Positions 19,267 to 26,400 of a DNA stretch of 64,000 nucleotides are shown here, piece by piece. The translations under genes and the position numbers were made by a program. The stretch's first letter is position 1; every line of letters begins with the position of its first letter. This DNA comes from an uncultured Gemmatimonadota bacterium (lineage in GTDB: Bacteria; Gemmatimonadota; Gemmatimonadetes; Gemmatimonadales; Gemmatimonadaceae), in the NCBI GenBank assembly GCA_902826615.1, contig CADEFN010000004.1:434001-498000 (forward strand), given 5' to 3'. The notes beneath the pieces were generated by a model that searched no databases, was not told the DNA's origin, and saw nothing but the letters and a program-made list of their open reading frames with translations.

Positions 19267-20361
19267 TTATCCGCGGAGCAGGGTGAGCACGCTCTGACCA
19301 GCCGAGTTGGCCTGGGCAAGCATGGCCGTACCGGCCTGCTGCAGGACCTGGTTCTTCGTAAAGCGGGTCATTTCAGCAGCCATGTCGAGGTCACGGATGG
19401 TGCTCTCCGCGGCGCTGAAGTTCTGGATGCTCGTGCGGACGTTCTCTGTGGCGGTTTCGATGCGGCTCTGCAAGGCACCGATGACACCGACGGCGACGTT
19501 CGCGTTGGTGATGGCCGTGTCGATCTGGCTCAGCGCAGTCTGCGCGTTGGCCAGGGTCGTCGGGTCCGTGGACACACCGAGCGAGGTGGAGCTGAGGTTG
19601 AGCGACGAACCCGAGATGGAGATCTGGTCGTTGCCCGAGTACTGACCCGAGGACGAGACGAGGAAGGTACCCGTACCGGCGCCAACCGAGATGTTGCCGG
19701 CGACGCTGGTGGCGGTTACCGCCTGGTTGGTGTCGATCGAGATGCCCAGCGAGGTGAAGTTCAGGGTCTGCTTGGCACCCGCGGTCACACCGAGGGTCTG
19801 CGAGGTGGAACCGTTGGTCAGGGTGACCACGGAGCTGCCCGAGGTCAGTGTGAACGCCCCCGTGCCTGCACCGGTCAATCGAACGTCGTACACACCGGTA
19901 CCAGTGCCGAGCGCGGTCGACGAGGTGTTGATCGTGGCACCGAACGCACCGTTGAGCAGGGTGTTGCCCTGGAACTTCACGGTGGCGACGGTACGGTCGA
20001 TTTCGTTCCGGAGCGCCTGGTACTCCGTGGTGATACGCGAACGACCAGCCGAGTCCACGCTGTCCGACGCGGCCTGTGCGGCCAGTTCCTTCATACGCTC
20101 GAGCATCTTCTGCACGGTACCCGTCGCACCTTCAGCGATGTTGAGCACCGAGTTCGCCTGCTCGGAGTTACGCGCAGCCTGTCCGAGAGCACGAATGTCC
20201 GCACGAAGGACGTTCGCGATACCGAGACCGGCGGCGTCGTCAGCTGCACGCGTGATCCGGAAGCCCGAGGACAACTTGGCCATCGACTTCGAGACGTCCT
20301 CGTTGATGCGGGTCAGGTTTCCGTGGGCGCGCAGGGCGCTGACATTGGTGTTGATTTTCAT
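19267..20361 (-). CDS. fliC: Flagellin FliC
   Basis: A 364-residue flagellin. The N-terminal D0/D1 part reads MKINTNVSALRAHGNLTRI and LSSGFRITRAADDAAGLGIA; the C-terminal helix carries ESTIRDLDMAAEMTRFTKNQ and ends AGQSVLTLLRG. The central variable part (residues 160-290) is rich in Thr and Ser and would be exposed on the filament, so it offers sites for O-glycosylation. There is no signal peptide; it is exported by the flagellar apparatus. A sigma-28 promoter and two likely CsrA sites precede it. It is the only flagellin gene in the window. Confidence 0.97.
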   Translation of the reverse strand: MKINTNVSALRAHGNLTRINEDVSKSMAKLSSGFRITRAADDAAGLGIANVLRADIRALGQAARNSEQANSVLNIAEGATGTVQKMLERMKELAAQAASDSVDSAGRSRITTEYQALRNEIDRTVATVKFQGNTLLNGAFGATINTSSTALGTGTGVYDVRLTGAGTGAFTLTSGSSVVTLTNGSTSQTLGVTAGAKQTLNFTSLGISIDTNQAVTATSVAGNISVGAGTGTFLVSSSGQYSGNDQISISGSSLNLSSTSLGVSTDPTTLANAQTALSQIDTAITNANVAVGVIGALQSRIETATENVRTSIQNFSAAESTIRDLDMAAEMTRFTKNQVLQQAGTAMLAQANSAGQSVLTLLRG

Positions 20362-20444: not shown

Positions 20445-20472
20445 GTATCGGACGGGGGGAGGAAAAGCTTTA
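20445..20472 (-). promoter_or_regulatory. Sigma-28 (FliA) promoter of fliC
   Basis: On the minus strand, TAAA, 16 bases, then TCCGATAC, close to the consensus TAAA-N15-GCCGATAA. The -10 element ends about 84 bases before the fliC ATG, giving a leader long enough to hold the two CsrA sites. Confidence 0.75.
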
Positions 20473-20476
20473 GTAC

Positions 20477-20573
20477 AGAAGCACGAGAAGCACGGGAGGC
20501 ACGGGAAGCACGGTCATGGTTGTGCCTCTCGTGCCTCGCGTGCCTCTCGTTCCTCTCGTTCCTCCCGTGCCTC
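20477..20573. repeat. Inverted arrays of 9-bp tandem repeats
   Basis: Left arm: GCACGAGAA, GCACGGGAG, GCACGGGAA, GCACGG. Right arm: CCTCTCGTG, CCTCGCGTG, CCTCTCGTT (twice), CCTCCCGTG, CCTCC. The arms are complementary, so the region can form a long hairpin. It sits after the FkbM gene stop and upstream of the fliC promoter and may act as a terminator or insulator. A related tandem array lies between flgF and flgG. Confidence 0.75.
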
Positions 20574-20578
20574 CGCCC

Positions 20579-21406
20579 CTACGCCGCCAGTGCGGGTGCC
20601 TCGGGGTGCCGGAAGAGCACATTGAAGACGTAGTTGGTCTCGGGCGACTGATTGGGCTCGAGCTTCTGGATCCACGTCTGTCCCGGCTGAAAGAGATAGG
20701 TCTCGTAACCCAGCTCCGACATCACGCTGCGCAGCATGTTCTCACTCGCTCCCATCGACTCCAGCCCGAAACGGTTCACCTCGGCGATGACAAAGGGGAT
20801 CCGATATTGAGCGATGAGCTTGCGCGCCCCGACCAAAATTGCGAACTCCGCGCCCTCGGCGTCGATCTTGATGGCCTTGAGACGGCTCATGTCCCGGGTG
20901 CCGAAGAACTCGTCGAGTGATGTGATGTAGACTTTTCGTGTGTTGGGCGTCACACGGGAGCGTTCATTGAACGGATGCCGACCCACGTCCCACAAGGCAT
21001 GGCCGCCATCGTTGTCGGCATTGACAAAGAACTCGCCGACGCTGGGCCGAGCACCCACCGCCATGTGGATGGGCCGAATCTGGGTGAAGCTGTTGGCGTC
21101 GATGTGCTCGACGAGATGCAGAAAGTTTGATGGCTCCGGCTCAAACGAGTACACGGTGCCGGTGGGCCCAACGAGGGCCGCGGCCAGCATCGAGAAGTAG
21201 CCGACGTGGGCCCCGATGTCGATGAAGGTGTCACCGGGCTGCAGCAGGGTTCCAATGAAGTTGCTGGTTTCGGACTCGTAGAGCCGGCCTGCCGCGAAGT
21301 CCTCGAGCATCGCCCGCTGGCTCATCTGCGCCGGGTCCAGGAGATAGCTGAGTTTGTGGACGCCGTTGGGCGCGGTAAGCGTGAAGGAAAATTCCTGGCG
21401 AGACAT
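20579..21406 (-). CDS. FkbM family methyltransferase
   Basis: Start chosen at the ATG at 21404-21406; the longer frame only overlaps the neighbouring gene. The 275-residue protein has an AdoMet fold: IDIGAHVGYFSMLAA near residues 64-78 (motif I), YSFEPEPSN near 88-96, and the FkbM pattern LKAIKIDAEGAEFAILVGA near 187-205. The family O-methylates sugars or small molecules. It is 22 bases downstream of the giant glycosyltransferase gene and next to fliC, so methylation of a flagellin glycan is the likely job; this is inference from position. Confidence 0.85.
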   Translation of the reverse strand: MSRQEFSFTLTAPNGVHKLSYLLDPAQMSQRAMLEDFAAGRLYESETSNFIGTLLQPGDTFIDIGAHVGYFSMLAAALVGPTGTVYSFEPEPSNFLHLVEHIDANSFTQIRPIHMAVGARPSVGEFFVNADNDGGHALWDVGRHPFNERSRVTPNTRKVYITSLDEFFGTRDMSRLKAIKIDAEGAEFAILVGARKLIAQYRIPFVIAEVNRFGLESMGASENMLRSVMSELGYETYLFQPGQTWIQKLEPNQSPETNYVFNVLFRHPEAPALAA

Positions 21407-21428: not shown

Positions 21429-24400
21429 CTACCAGAGGGGAGCGAGGATTTCAAGGAGCCGGGCCGTCTGTGCACGCCAGGTGAGCGGCGCCATGGCGAC
21501 CGCTCCGGCAACACCAAGGGCTCGGCGCCCTGCACTGTCGGTGTAGAGTGTTTCGAGGGCGGCCACCATCTCGTCGACCGAGGACTCACCCCAGCCGTCG
21601 TGACCACGGAAGAAGTGCGTGGGTGGCACCACTCCGCGCTGCGTGGGCAGTGGAAGGCACCCCTGCATCGCCACGAGGTCGAGATGTCCGGTATTGGCCG
21701 AAACGATCGTGGGCACACCGCTGGCCATGCACTCCATGGCCACCAGGTTGGTGCCTCCCTCACAGCGGTTGGGGAAGAGGGCGACGTCGGCTTCGCGAAT
21801 GACCTGCGCCATGAAGGCGTTGGGTTGCGGGCCCACATCGACATGCGACGCAGCCGGAATGCCGTTGGCGGCAAGCCAGGGCGTCAGCTGCAACTGCCCA
21901 TTCACCACATCGGGACGCCCCTGCACGTGACCTGCCAGGTCGAGATCGACCAGGAGCTGGGGCCAGGCGTTGTGCCAGGCCGTCACCAGTACGGCGTCGG
22001 GGTGTGTGGTGACAAAACGACGAAAGGCGGCAATGACCAGATCCTGCCCCTTGCGATACTCGAGTTTGCCGCCGGAGAAGATGACAAAACGCCCGGGGAA
22101 GAGCCCGCGTCCGGGAGCGGGGTGGAAGATGGATGGATCGACCCCCTGCAGCAGCGTGGTGACGTTGTGAATACCGCCACTGCGCAACACTTCGGTGTTC
22201 CAGGTGGAGCCGGCCACGATCAGGTCGAAGGCCTGCGCACGTGCACGCATCTCGCCATCGCAGGCAGTGTCTTCCAAAAAGACCACACCCACGTTGCGCC
22301 GCGCGGGCGTGTGGCTTTCGCTCCCGTTGCCGGCGAGCCGGTTCCCCAGACCACGCAGCATCATTCCATTGGAGACCGCACGTCGCGCGCCGTCACCGGT
22401 GAGCAACACGTCCTCGGAGCCGCCAAAGCGGCCCGCCAGACGCGAGACCATCAACGGAGGGAGTGTCGTCAGGTTGGCCGTGACAACCGCCGGACATACC
22501 TGGCCGCCCAGCATGAGTTCGAGAGCGAGGTTGGCGCCGTAGACGCCCCAACCCGTATCGCCGCGCAACTCCCAGTCGATGCCTAACGTGTTGTGCTCCA
22601 CCTTGGCATGCGACTCGCCCGCTTGGTCTGCCGGTTGGCCCGTCAGGTCGCGCAACACATGCGGCAACAGGAGCACGACGGACTGTGCAACGCTGGCGTC
22701 GTCCACGGGATCGAGCGTGACTTCCTGGCTCCAGCCGAGTGCGAGGAGGTGATACCCGACGCTCACTCCCCACTGCGCGAGTGGGGAGCTGGCGGGCACC
22801 ACGTTGTCGATGACCACCACGTCGGGCCGACGCAGTCCATCGGGCCAGGCGCCGTGGTCGGGCGCGGCATGAACAATCAACCGGCTGCCGGCATCGAGCG
22901 AATAATTTGACAGCGTGTCCGTCACGTCCACGCGAACGGCGGGTGCACGGCGCTGCGTCATCCCCCGGATTCGGTCACCATCAGCAGGAGCGCCCACTAT
23001 GGTCATGTGCATCGGGGCGCTGGGAGCGAGCGCGACTTCCATGCTCACGAGGCCAAGACCGGGCCGCATCTCGACAAAGTGGTCACCCGGCCGCACGATC
23101 TCGGCAAGAAATTCGCGGAGCGCGAGATGTGCCCCTCGCCCGATCAGCTCTGCCTCATACTCGGCAAACACATCAGCGCGGGCCAGCAGTGCCAGCGGAG
23201 CCCAGACATCAAAACGCGATCGTCCGTCGGGAGTGCGCGTGACTGAGGGCAGCGTGATTACATCCTCGACCACTTCGGAGTCGCCCGCCTGACCGGCACG
23301 TGCGGCCAGTGCGTCCGCCACCTGCGCAAACACCGTCGCCCAGTCGCCAGGTACCGGCTGCCGGAAGAGGCGCATGGTGGGATACCAGGGCGAGTCGGTG
23401 CGGTCGAGCATCCAGCGAAAGTCGGGGACATGCGGGAGCAGCAGCCAGGTTTCCCTGCCTAACGCCCCCGCCAGGTGTGCGACTGAGGTATCGACAGTGA
23501 CGACGAGGTCGAGGGCATGGATCGCGGCGGCGGTATCCCGAAAGTCGGTCAGCTCGGGGGCAAGGTCGGTGATCCCCGAGTCGCCAAGCGATCGCAGCGC
23601 CTCTTCCGGGGCATCGCCCTTCTGGAGCGAGAACGCCACGACACCGGGGATGCGTGCCAGCGCCGCCATGGCATCGAGCGGTGCGGAACGCATGACGTCA
23701 CGCGCATGGATGGGGTTCCCTGCCCACACCACGCCGACACGCAAACCACTCGCAGCAGCAACCGATGCCGCCACGGGCCGCGGTTCGACGGGCAGATACG
23801 GAACCCGGGACGGGATGGTGTGGAGCGTGGTCTGCGCGAGCCACGGCAACGACATCAGACTGCAATGGAGATCGTAATGCGGGAGTGGCGCGCCCCTGGC
23901 TATCGCCTCGTCCACGCCATCAGCGCCCGCGAGCAAGGGCACCACCGGCCACGGGGCCTCGACGATCACCCGCCCTGATCCGTGCTCCTTGAGCCATGCT
24001 GCGTACCGCACAAACTGGAAGACGTCGCCAACCCCCTGCTCGGCGTGGAGCAGAATCGTGCGGCCATCGAGCGCATCACCGGTCCACTCGCCGGGACCGT
24101 AGTCGTGATGATCAAGGACTGCCGACACCAGGCGTTTGCGCCACTCAAACTGCCGCCAGCCGCGCTCGAAGTCGCCGCGCAGCAACCAGAGCAGGGCCAG
24201 ATTCCAGTTGGTGTTCCTGTTGTCGGGGTCGCGAGAGAGGGCCTCCTGGTAGAGGGCCTCGCATGCGTCGTAGTCGCCGCGTTCCATGGCCACATTGGCC
24301 AGGAGGTTGAACGCTTCGGCGTAGTCGGGGTCGGCGTCGAGGGCGCGGCGTGCCCAATGCTCGACCATCGCATGGTTCATTTCGCGCTCGTACACAGACG

Positions 24401-25070
24401 CACAATTGCCGAGGATGACCGGATCGTGCGGTGCCAGTTCCACGGCCCGTACGAACGCGCGATGGGCGTCGGCAAACCGGCGTTCTTCCTTGTAGAGTGT
24501 GCCGAGGTTGCTGAGAGCGTTGAGATGCGATGGCGCCAGTGTCAGCGCCCGTTCAAGTGAGGCAATGGCTGCGGCGGGCTCGCGCAAACCGCGGAGAGCG
24601 AGCCCCCGATTACTCCAGAAGTCGGCCGCCTCGGGGTCGAGGGCAATGGCCCGGTCATATGCTTCCACCGCCTCACGGCAGCGGAACATCTCCAGGAGCA
24701 CGTTGGCGTGGTTGTTCTGCCAGCCAGCGCGCCCGGGTTCGAGTGCTGTCGCTCGCGCAAAGCAGAGCTCCGCGCGCGTGTTGTCGCCACGCTGAGCGGC
24801 GATGAGCCCCAGGTTGTTCCAGGCTTCGCCGTAGGCCGCATCTGCCTCAACCGCGCGTTGCAGCAACGGGAGTGCGTCATCGGTTCTGCCGGCGGCGTGA
24901 AGGAGGGCTCCGAGATTGTTGAGGGCCACGGCATGCGCCGGCTCCCGGGTGAGCACCTTGCGATACCACCGCTCCGCTTCGGCCGTCTGGCCGGCGAGAT
25001 GTGCGCGGACCGCCAGGGCGATATCGCCGGAGGCGGTGTGCGCGCGCGAAGGAGCAACCGTGGGTGTCAG
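21429..25070 (-). CDS. Large TPR protein with two glycosyltransferase domains
   Basis: About 1213 residues if read from the CTG at 25068-25070; the first usual start is GTG at 24956 (1175 residues). I prefer the CTG because the extra 38 residues complete a TPR unit (AVRAHLAGQTAEAERWYRK), GAGGAG lies 8 bases before it, and it overlaps the fliW stop. Order, counted from the GTG: TPR units 1-270 (such as EAWNNLGLIAAQRGD); a GT9/TPR-linked domain 285-570 (HAEQGVGDVFQFVRY, VVWAGNPIHARD, VTVDTSVAHLAGALG); a degraded methyltransferase-like part 590-740; and a GT-B domain 800-1175 with FSGGKLEYRKGQD and EGGTNLVAMECMASG. It probably builds a flagellin glycan in the cytoplasm. Confidence 0.82.
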   Translation of the reverse strand: MTPTVAPSRAHTASGDIALAVRAHLAGQTAEAERWYRKVLTREPAHAVALNNLGALLHAAGRTDDALPLLQRAVEADAAYGEAWNNLGLIAAQRGDNTRAELCFARATALEPGRAGWQNNHANVLLEMFRCREAVEAYDRAIALDPEAADFWSNRGLALRGLREPAAAIASLERALTLAPSHLNALSNLGTLYKEERRFADAHRAFVRAVELAPHDPVILGNCASVYEREMNHAMVEHWARRALDADPDYAEAFNLLANVAMERGDYDACEALYQEALSRDPDNRNTNWNLALLWLLRGDFERGWRQFEWRKRLVSAVLDHHDYGPGEWTGDALDGRTILLHAEQGVGDVFQFVRYAAWLKEHGSGRVIVEAPWPVVPLLAGADGVDEAIARGAPLPHYDLHCSLMSLPWLAQTTLHTIPSRVPYLPVEPRPVAASVAAASGLRVGVVWAGNPIHARDVMRSAPLDAMAALARIPGVVAFSLQKGDAPEEALRSLGDSGITDLAPELTDFRDTAAAIHALDLVVTVDTSVAHLAGALGRETWLLLPHVPDFRWMLDRTDSPWYPTMRLFRQPVPGDWATVFAQVADALAARAGQAGDSEVVEDVITLPSVTRTPDGRSRFDVWAPLALLARADVFAEYEAELIGRGAHLALREFLAEIVRPGDHFVEMRPGLGLVSMEVALAPSAPMHMTIVGAPADGDRIRGMTQRRAPAVRVDVTDTLSNYSLDAGSRLIVHAAPDHGAWPDGLRRPDVVVIDNVVPASSPLAQWGVSVGYHLLALGWSQEVTLDPVDDASVAQSVVLLLPHVLRDLTGQPADQAGESHAKVEHNTLGIDWELRGDTGWGVYGANLALELMLGGQVCPAVVTANLTTLPPLMVSRLAGRFGGSEDVLLTGDGARRAVSNGMMLRGLGNRLAGNGSESHTPARRNVGVVFLEDTACDGEMRARAQAFDLIVAGSTWNTEVLRSGGIHNVTTLLQGVDPSIFHPAPGRGLFPGRFVIFSGGKLEYRKGQDLVIAAFRRFVTTHPDAVLVTAWHNAWPQLLVDLDLAGHVQGRPDVVNGQLQLTPWLAANGIPAASHVDVGPQPNAFMAQVIREADVALFPNRCEGGTNLVAMECMASGVPTIVSANTGHLDLVAMQGCLPLPTQRGVVPPTHFFRGHDGWGESSVDEMVAALETLYTDSAGRRALGVAGAVAMAPLTWRAQTARLLEILAPLW

Positions 25071-25522
25071 AGGGTGAACTCCTCGCGAATCCCGAAGGCG
25101 TCATCGGGGCGGATACTCTGGTAGCCCTGACCCGCGCGTGCATTGAACATGAGCGGGGCATGGAGATTGGCCGTGCAGGGCTGCGAGGGCTCAGGCGGCA
25201 TCGTCACGATCGAGAGCACCAGGATGTCTTCGGCGTTCGCCGTGCCTAACCGTGCCTTGTCGGACTCCGTCAGCTCGATGTGGAACTTCGGGAAGACCAT
25301 GAAGGGGTCGACGAGCAGAAAGACGAGGGCGGAGAACTCGATGGATTGCAGCCAGAACACGCCATCGCGTGGCGTGGGCAGGAGCGCAAAACGGGTGGCG
25401 CCCGGAAAGCCGTACAGTCCTTCGGCGAAGGCGACGATCTGGTCCGGGGCGACGGGAATGGGCCCCAGCACTTCCGACGCAACCGTGATGGGCGCGGCGG
25501 TTTCGGCAGTCACAGCGGTCAT
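25067..25522 (-). CDS. fliW: Flagellar assembly factor FliW
   Basis: A 151-residue beta-rich protein with the FliW pattern: IVAFAEGLYGFPGATRFALL near residues 28-47 (in pieces FAEGLYGFP), WLQSIEFSALVFLLVDP, and LVLSIVTMP. FliW binds both flagellin and CsrA: when flagellin builds up FliW leaves CsrA, which then blocks fliC translation. Its ATG overlaps the flgL stop by 4 bases. csrA is not adjacent but lies at 56.5 kb, after flgK. Confidence 0.92.
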   Translation of the reverse strand: MTAVTAETAAPITVASEVLGPIPVAPDQIVAFAEGLYGFPGATRFALLPTPRDGVFWLQSIEFSALVFLLVDPFMVFPKFHIELTESDKARLGTANAEDILVLSIVTMPPEPSQPCTANLHAPLMFNARAGQGYQSIRPDDAFGIREEFTL

Positions 25523-26400
25523 CGGAGATAGTCGGCGAGAGACATACCCATGATGCGAGAGGTCGAGAGCATGGCGGCCTGGTACACGGTCTGCCGCGAG
25601 ACCAGCTCCGTCACCGCCTTTTCCAGATCAGCGTCCTGCAAGTTCGATTTGAACGCCCGCAGTGACGTATCGAGCGCGCCGAGGTTGGCATCGGCAATTT
25701 CGAGTTGTGCGGTTTGCGCGCCCACCTCGCCCAGCATCACCTGCATGCTGGAATGCGCACCGTCGATGGTGTCGATGGAGGTGAGAATTGCCGGCACGTC
25801 ATCGGCGCCTAACGCGGCCGAGAGTTCGTCGAAGGCGGCAAGGACATTGGATGTCAGAAAGACATCGGTGGCGTTATGGCCCGCCCGCACCCGGAGCGCA
25901 GACGAGACTTCGGCCAAACGATTGCCCGTTGGTGGCGCCGCGGAAAATGGGGGCGTGGGACTGCTGAGTGGCGCGGTGTCGGACTGATCGCCACCAAAGA
26001 GAAACTCACCCTGATGCTGCTGGTTGCCGATCTGCACGGCGGCGAGCGCGAGCTGATCGATTTCAGCCTTGGCCGTGAGTCGTGTCTGGGCGCTGGCCGT
26101 GGCTGTGCCCTGACTGATGGCCAGCTCCTTCGCGCGCTCGAGCAGCTGCGTCACGGCAGTGAGGGCCTGCTCTTCCACCCCAAGTCGCGCGGTGGCGGAG
26201 TTGATGTTGCGCTGGTACTGCTCGATCGCGCGCAGTGAGGAGCCGGTCTTCACGATGGCCGACGCCGCCGACGGATCGTCCGAGGCAACTTCAACGCGCA
26301 AACCACTGGAGGCACGACGCTGAGCCTCGTCCACCCGGCGCAGCGACTCCTGCAGAGTGTTCAGGGCGTTGCGGGTGGTGATGTTATTGGTGATCCGCAT
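25519..26400 (-). CDS. flgL: Hook-filament junction protein FlgL
   Basis: A 293-residue protein of the flagellin superfamily: MRITNNITTRNALNTLQESL and SSGLRVEVASDDPSAAS at the N-terminus, and the C-terminal helix with LEKAVTELVSRQTVYQAAM followed by GMSLADYLR. GNQQHQGEFLFGG near residue 130 is typical of FlgL. It forms the last ring between hook and filament. It starts the minus-strand operon flgL-fliW-glycosyltransferase-fkbM, while its partner FlgK is encoded 29 kb away. Confidence 0.93.
   Translation of the reverse strand: MRITNNITTRNALNTLQESLRRVDEAQRRASSGLRVEVASDDPSAASAIVKTGSSLRAIEQYQRNINSATARLGVEEQALTAVTQLLERAKELAISQGTATASAQTRLTAKAEIDQLALAAVQIGNQQHQGEFLFGGDQSDTAPLSSPTPPFSAAPPTGNRLAEVSSALRVRAGHNATDVFLTSNVLAAFDELSAALGADDVPAILTSIDTIDGAHSSMQVMLGEVGAQTAQLEIADANLGALDTSLRAFKSNLQDADLEKAVTELVSRQTVYQAAMLSTSRIMGMSLADYLR

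Follow-up and report, generated by a model that had tools for sequence, protein, structure and literature searches.

A fliW-fliC locus of the Gemmatimonadaceae encodes a TPR protein with two glycosyltransferase domains and a degenerate but maintained methyltransferase-like domain, a probable flagellin glycosyltransferase

The window analysed in this study is the whole 64,000-nucleotide stretch from contig CADEFN010000004.1 of an uncultured bacterium of the family Gemmatimonadaceae, and all coordinates refer to it. It carries a flagellar locus in which the genes, reading downstream, are flgL, fliW, a giant gene, fkbM, fliC and fliD. The same order was found at loci L007-L010, L107 and L108, of which L007-L010, from Gemmatimonadaceae/Gemmatimonadetes metagenome-assembled genomes, are the closest named relatives. 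The features of the locus are as follows:

19267..20361, minus strand: fliC, flagellin, the presumed substrate (Flagellin_N 1.9e-34, Flagellin_C 3.1e-23)
20446..20472, minus strand: sigma28-like fliC promoter, TAAAGCTT-N11-GTCCGATA, 111 nt upstream of the ATG
20579..21406, minus strand: fkbM, FkbM-family methyltransferase with intact DIGAHVG, FEP and KIDAEG motifs
21429..25070, minus strand: giant TPR-GT9-psMT-GT4 protein, 1213 aa from a CTG start (open frame and Pfam)
21447..22586, minus strand: GT4-type GT-B glycosyltransferase domain (Pfam, VIA-align to BshA, motifs)
22641..23267, minus strand: psMT, a degenerate FkbM-like methyltransferase domain (hhalign with controls, 32-member family)
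23304..24185, minus strand: GT9-like GT-B domain with EQGVGDVFQF and DTSVAHLAGA (Glyco_transf_9, own profile, motifs)
24180..25028, minus strand: TPR superhelix of about nine repeats (Pfam TPR families, AlphaFold2 helices with high pLDDT)
25067..25084, minus strand: GAGGAG-N8-CTGA, probable ribosome site, with the CTG start lying over the fliW stop
25067..25522, minus strand: fliW (FliW 8.9e-29)
25519..26400, minus strand: flgL, hook-filament junction protein (Flagellin_N 4.2e-19, Flagellin_C 6.4e-08), upstream of fliW in relatives

The initial annotation had placed an FkbM methyltransferase and then flagellin after the giant gene, and both assignments held in the Pfam search. The fkbM product matched Methyltransf_21 (PF05050) with an E-value of 8.5e-21 (75.3 bits, cut-off 22.7) and TIGR01444 with 91 bits (cut-off 37.7), and the FkbM motif residues are retained in all 13 aligned FkbM sequences. 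The fliW product is, judging by its family, presumably a flagellin-binding regulator. The fliC promoter resembles the sigma28 consensus. A similar site 105-112 nt upstream was present in 25 of 63 flagellin upstream regions (G090 being counted twice), where shuffles expect 0.8, and this count is not independent of the window site, which had been seen before the scan pattern was set. Sigma70-type promoters were searched for and none was found. Since fliC has its own sigma28-like promoter, the glycosylation genes could share the transcription of flgL and fliW, and we infer that they would be transcribed with these two genes and apart from fliC. A strong long hairpin (20446-20580, minus strand) lies between fkbM and the sigma28-like fliC promoter; it may be a terminator or mark where an mRNA ends or begins.

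The frame of the giant is open for 1223 codons from stop to stop, and the limits 21429-25070 of the initial annotation fit a start at a CTG overlapping the stop codon of fliW (CTGA). A GAGGAG lies 8 nt upstream of this CTG; the GAGGAG-N8-CTGA pattern occurs once in the window against 0.13 expected, and since GAGGAG also codes for conserved FliW residues, it is not independent evidence for the CTG start. The earliest ATG, GTG or TTG, at 24956, is already within the first TPR. The CTG with its upstream GAGGAG was found in the window, L007 and L010 (three of the four species of the genus), and none of these three has an ATG, GTG or TTG between the CTG and the first TPR. The fourth species (L107) has an ATG at the equivalent position.

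The initial annotation had described a single chain of TPRs, a GT9-like domain, a methyltransferase-like part and a GT-B domain, and had proposed a domain search and a structure prediction. This chain was confirmed, and the same architecture occurs in eight genomes. The best Pfam TPR match was TPR_1 (2.8e-36). Glyco_transf_9 (PF01075) scored 22.4 bits, barely above its cut-off of 22.0 and over the C-terminal part of the domain only, while the GT4 domain was matched by Glycos_transf_1 (35.0 bits, cut-off 26.4) and Glyco_trans_1_4 (33.9 bits, cut-off 27.0). Pfam gave no match over residues 600-800, between the two GT domains. The AlphaFold2 model of the giant (1200 residues, 16 sequences, mean pLDDT 81.6) contains about nine TPRs, an alpha/beta region corresponding to GT9, a low-confidence alpha/beta domain and the GT4 domain. 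When the full model was compared by VIA-align, the matches covered residues 811-1200 only, and there the GT4 part was aligned to BshA, a solved GT4 enzyme, with a Z-score of 32.6 (rmsd 2.8 Å, 325 residues). Both glycosyltransferase domains keep their family motifs: among 13 giants with or without psMT, the GT4 motifs are intact in all 13 and each of the two GT9 motifs in 11. Among the 25 NCBIfam families listed for the giant, no equivalog scored above cut-off. A search of its own genome returned, besides the giant itself, short TPR matches only, which indicates a single copy.

To characterize the domain between the two glycosyltransferases, we searched 395 genomes of the phylum with a psMT profile. 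It found 32 members, each the only copy in its genome, at E-values no higher than 4e-32; all of these genomes belong to the family of the window and have flagellin (32/32). The single extra match in the phylum (G116) is PrmA, a true methyltransferase, and was dropped from the family count. The best solved chain for the profile was a release-factor (glutamine-N5) methyltransferase (E 0.0027). An hhalign comparison of the 32-sequence profile with FkbM covered 57 columns and scored 41.0 (E 2.4e-5). The controls were lower: none of six other family profiles exceeded 19.9, the highest score among 60 column shuffles was 20.9, and reversing the profile gave 11.8. The resemblance lies in the N-terminal half, the C-terminal half being poorly conserved, and one single psMT sequence (L089) matches the FkbM protein of the window directly (E 9e-4). 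The first glycine of motif I (D-x-G in FkbM) is present in 13/13 FkbM sequences and absent from 32/32 psMT sequences, so that psMT lacks an intact D-x-G-x-x-x-G. Its loop reads D-x-x-P-[GA]-x-G, with the proline and the last glycine invariant and the acid being D in 30 and E in two sequences. The position aligned with the glutamate of the FkbM FEP motif is D or E in 11/32. No Pfam methyltransferase model scored above cut-off in the 16 psMT members scanned, and no NCBIfam family was found for two psMT proteins that contain no GT. AlphaFold2 modelled psMT alone (5 sequences) poorly, with a pLDDT of 51. Foldseek on this poor model returned mostly methyltransferases, weakly (best E 0.01), and VIA-align gave a top Z of 5.6 with methyltransferases mixed with eIF2B, pyruvate kinase and dehydrogenases. 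Because of this mixture of folds, the structural match list was not used as proof.

Of the parts of the giant, psMT diverges fastest, with 31-44% identity vs 53-70% for GT9 and GT4. Its dN/dS was 0.24 for L007/L010, 0.13 for L193/L194, 0.10 for L158/L180, 0.16 for L188/L192 and 0.18 for L158/L159 by the Nei-Gojobori method, values that are rough, as dS exceeds 1 in two of the five pairs; for L007/L010, GT9 gave 0.21 and GT4 0.19. Values of about 0.1-0.24 indicate that the domain is maintained. Thus, at the level of sequence, psMT is degenerate yet maintained under purifying selection, and it is apparently inactive as a methyltransferase. The part had been described as a worn-out, degraded methyltransferase. 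The methyltransferase relationship is real at the profile level, but decay does not describe a conserved family in 32 genomes that is under purifying selection and also exists outside the giant. Eight of the 32 members are within giants, 11 are N-terminal to another GT4, and 13 are in frames without a recognised GT; the domain is fused with or near GT genes. One of the latter frames (L189, 1018 codons) has a weak hydrolase match, under its cut-off. psMT and fliC are on one contig in 24 genomes, at a distance of up to 18 kb in 23 and of 62 kb in one, and on different contigs in eight.

To see how the unit is distributed, we scanned the surroundings of flagellin genes with profiles built from the window and the first relatives. 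Flagellin was matched in 82 of 179 genomes of the family, which need not all be among the 395 phylum genomes of the psMT search, and 62 flagellin loci from these 82 genomes were read. GT9, GT4 or psMT genes were present at 37 of the 62 and absent from 25, a proportion that overstates their frequency, since 22 of the loci entered through GT4 or psMT searches; the 40 loci chosen by flagellin alone (L123-L162) comprised 15 with and 25 without GT genes. The flagellin-modification island is therefore variable within the family. Both fliW and fliC were present at 46 loci. GT9, GT4 or psMT genes lie between them in 22, while 23 have an interval of less than 1 kb without such genes, and the remaining one, L148, has an interval of 1450 bp, also without them. 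The four-domain giants lie between fliW and fliC in 8/8 cases (window, L007-L010, L107-L109). This bears out the compact flagellin-linked unit of the initial annotation, which had named a gene unlinked to fliC in all relatives as the contrary outcome. FkbM follows the giant in seven of these eight loci, the exception being L109, and is absent beside the giants of L109, L112 and L114. A single GT9-GT4 frame without psMT was found at L110-L112, L114, L115 and L124. Flagellin has about 365 residues where the giant is present, vs frames of about 590-660 codons at L143, L145 and L147, which have no glycosylation unit at fliC. At L146 (3233-4152) flagellin is in two overlapping frames, perhaps because of a frameshift or an assembly error.

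The glycosyltransferase pair itself has a wider distribution. Relatives of the GT4 half with 40-54% identity occur across many phyla. In 76 other loci (L011-L086), GT9-type genes are nearby in many cases, a flagellin gene was found in the examined flanks of 10 only, and a profile scan found no psMT. Some cyanobacteria, organisms not known to have flagella, have GT9-GT4 in a single chain of 955-975 codons, and TPR-GT9-GT4 fusions also occur in them. The small number of nearby flagellin genes and the cyanobacterial fusions indicate that the pair is broader than flagellin modification. Azospirillum brasilense (G375, record of L047) gave 56 matches to the TPR-GT9 query, a large expansion, and one cyanobacterial frame of 3296 codons (L011, 280-10167) has five GT9 domains and one GT4.

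Among known systems, the closest in plan is FlmG of Caulobacter crescentus. Its TPR half, which bound flagellins in two-hybrid assays, can select flagellin, while its GT-B half glycosylates it (PMC7591256). The giant has the same order of N-terminal TPRs and a C-terminal GT-B domain, and FlmG acts on cytoplasmic flagellin; however, FlmG has 596 aa and one GT and uses pseudaminic acid, and the accessible part of that paper mentions no psMT, second GT or FkbM (PMC7591256). The likeness is one of architecture only. A Phenylobacterium TPR-GT9 frame of 589 codons (L198), 35% identical to the giant across both halves, was considered as a stand-in for FlmG and rejected, since its gene adjoins ABC transporter genes. 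In the type B flagellin locus of C. difficile, GT2 is one protein proposed to add and methylate two sugars, and is likewise encoded beside fliC (PMC5207246). It differs from the giant in that its glycosyltransferase belongs to Pfam 00535 and its methyltransferase to Pfam 08241; the accessible text mentions no TPRs and, unlike for psMT, does not report the methyltransferase as degenerate (PMC5207246). In Pseudomonas syringae, a short flagellin glycan ends in a sugar with a 14-Da group, which is due to the separate methyltransferase VioM, and that terminal sugar is added by the large transferase VioT (1,173 aa) (PMC3927599). A separate methyltransferase and a large transferase are also present in the window, but the P. 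syringae genes are separate members of a viosamine island, with no TPR fusion mentioned in the accessible text (PMC3927599). There are thus precedents both for methylated glycans on flagellin and for a GT fused to a methyltransferase (PMC3927599, PMC5207246). Other flagellin glycosylation islands also carry fkbM inside the island; they lack psMT as far as the accessible main texts go, and neither text contains 'TPR', 'tetratricopeptide' or 'fused' (PMC4875605, PMC5109656). A search by title and start of abstract, mostly outside subscription journals, found no paper on a TPR-GT9-GT4 fusion or a flagellin pseudo-methyltransferase, and a literature search for flagellin glycosylation in the phylum listed nothing beyond a data bank on organisms that swim. 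The unit is of the FlmG kind with added parts: the FlmG plan is known and the psMT family is new.

Taken together, the giant is probably a flagellin O-glycosyltransferase of the FlmG type that acts in the cytoplasm and includes a second GT and a non-catalytic scaffold domain, and the adjacent FkbM would methylate the glycan. It would work like the Caulobacter protein, with more steps in one chain. By analogy with FlmG, the TPR superhelix would bind unfolded or monomeric flagellin before export; the GT9-like domain may put the first sugar on Ser/Thr and the GT4 domain may add the next one. psMT would no longer act as an FkbM-type methyltransferase and could instead have a structural or docking role, holding the growing glycan, flagellin or the neighbouring FkbM enzyme, and the separate FkbM protein would O-methylate the short glycan. 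The sugars, their methylation and the binding of flagellin are predicted from these analogies. The FlmG plan together with the flagellin binding of the FlmG TPR half, the position of all eight four-domain genes between fliW and fliC, and the GT4 and GT9 motifs argue for such a protein. The scheme is also favoured by the restriction of psMT to flagellin-bearing genomes, its proximity to fliC and to GT genes, the lost first glycine, the low dN/dS and the matches of the profile to PrmA and the release-factor enzyme. On the other side, nothing in the GT9-GT4 pair as such ties it to flagellin, and the 25 family loci without the unit, the three giants without FkbM and the poor psMT model with its mixed folds also weigh against the scheme. 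FlmG uses pseudaminic acid, and the NeuB-family match of the window genome (G000), although above the Pfam cut-off, is a single partial one of 37 bits in a 306-codon frame, far below the more than 240 bits of G140, G236 and G123. This too weighs somewhat against the likeness, and with so weak a match a nonulosonic acid would be an unlikely sugar donor in the window genome.

Other explanations of psMT differ in what the domain does. It could be a mere spacer that sets the distance between the GTs and has no partner, as might be suggested by its rapid divergence and by the GT9-GT4 proteins that occupy the same place without it; the 24 members outside the giants are unlike a spacer, and we consider this unlikely. 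Still less probable is that psMT is an enzyme whose D-x-x-P-G-x-G loop holds SAM or some other nucleotide for the methylation of a sugar, which would give the giant a methylation step of its own. The near-invariant acid, proline and last glycine of the loop would fit, as would the union of GT and methyltransferase domains in C. difficile GT2 (PMC5207246), but the first glycine is missing throughout, the FEP glutamate is replaced by a non-acidic residue in most members, the C-terminal half is poorly conserved, and the Pfam models stayed under cut-off in 16/16 members.

The target of the unit and its main role may also be questioned. Modification of something other than flagellin, such as a surface polysaccharide or FlgL, with the flagellar position kept for regulatory reasons, would agree with the related GT9-GT4 sets that have no flagellin gene in the examined flanks at most of those 76 loci. 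This is very unlikely, as within the family psMT is restricted to flagellin-bearing genomes and the four-domain genes lie exactly between fliW and fliC. Alternatively, the giant could be mainly a flagellin regulator or chaperone, with glycosylation secondary, like GmaR of Listeria, which is reportedly a bifunctional flagellin regulator. The overlap of the giant gene with fliW is in line with such a role, but two GT domains with intact motifs and an adjacent methyltransferase point to catalysis, and we give this idea little credence.

An extension of the FlmG-like scheme, which we put forward tentatively and with more doubt than confidence, is that psMT is a new flagellin-dedicated pseudo-methyltransferase family that serves as a docking platform for the GTs, flagellin and the true methyltransferase, the giant being a one-protein assembly line. 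If so, the re-use of psMT in the giant, fused to another GT4 and alone would mark it as the organising part. The psMT family is a new element of the locus and the part worth following: if confirmed, a domain that is both conserved and catalytically degenerate and that occurs solely together with flagellin would add a new, testable part to flagellin-glycosylation systems. Except in a few model bacteria, little is known, to our knowledge, of how GTs recognise flagellin and how multi-step cytoplasmic flagellin glycans are ordered. The locus offers a compact system, whose two genes encode a putative substrate-binding domain, two transferases and a methyltransferase. Related modules vary further at other loci. 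At L116 (9965-13408) and L133 (3-2717), tandem proteins of the TPR-GT9-TPR-GT9 type adjoin fkbM and fliC, so the module multiplies. At L186 (5809-12318), a 2170-codon frame with several GT4 domains, one GT2 and a kinase-like stretch adjoins psMT-GT4 and fliW.
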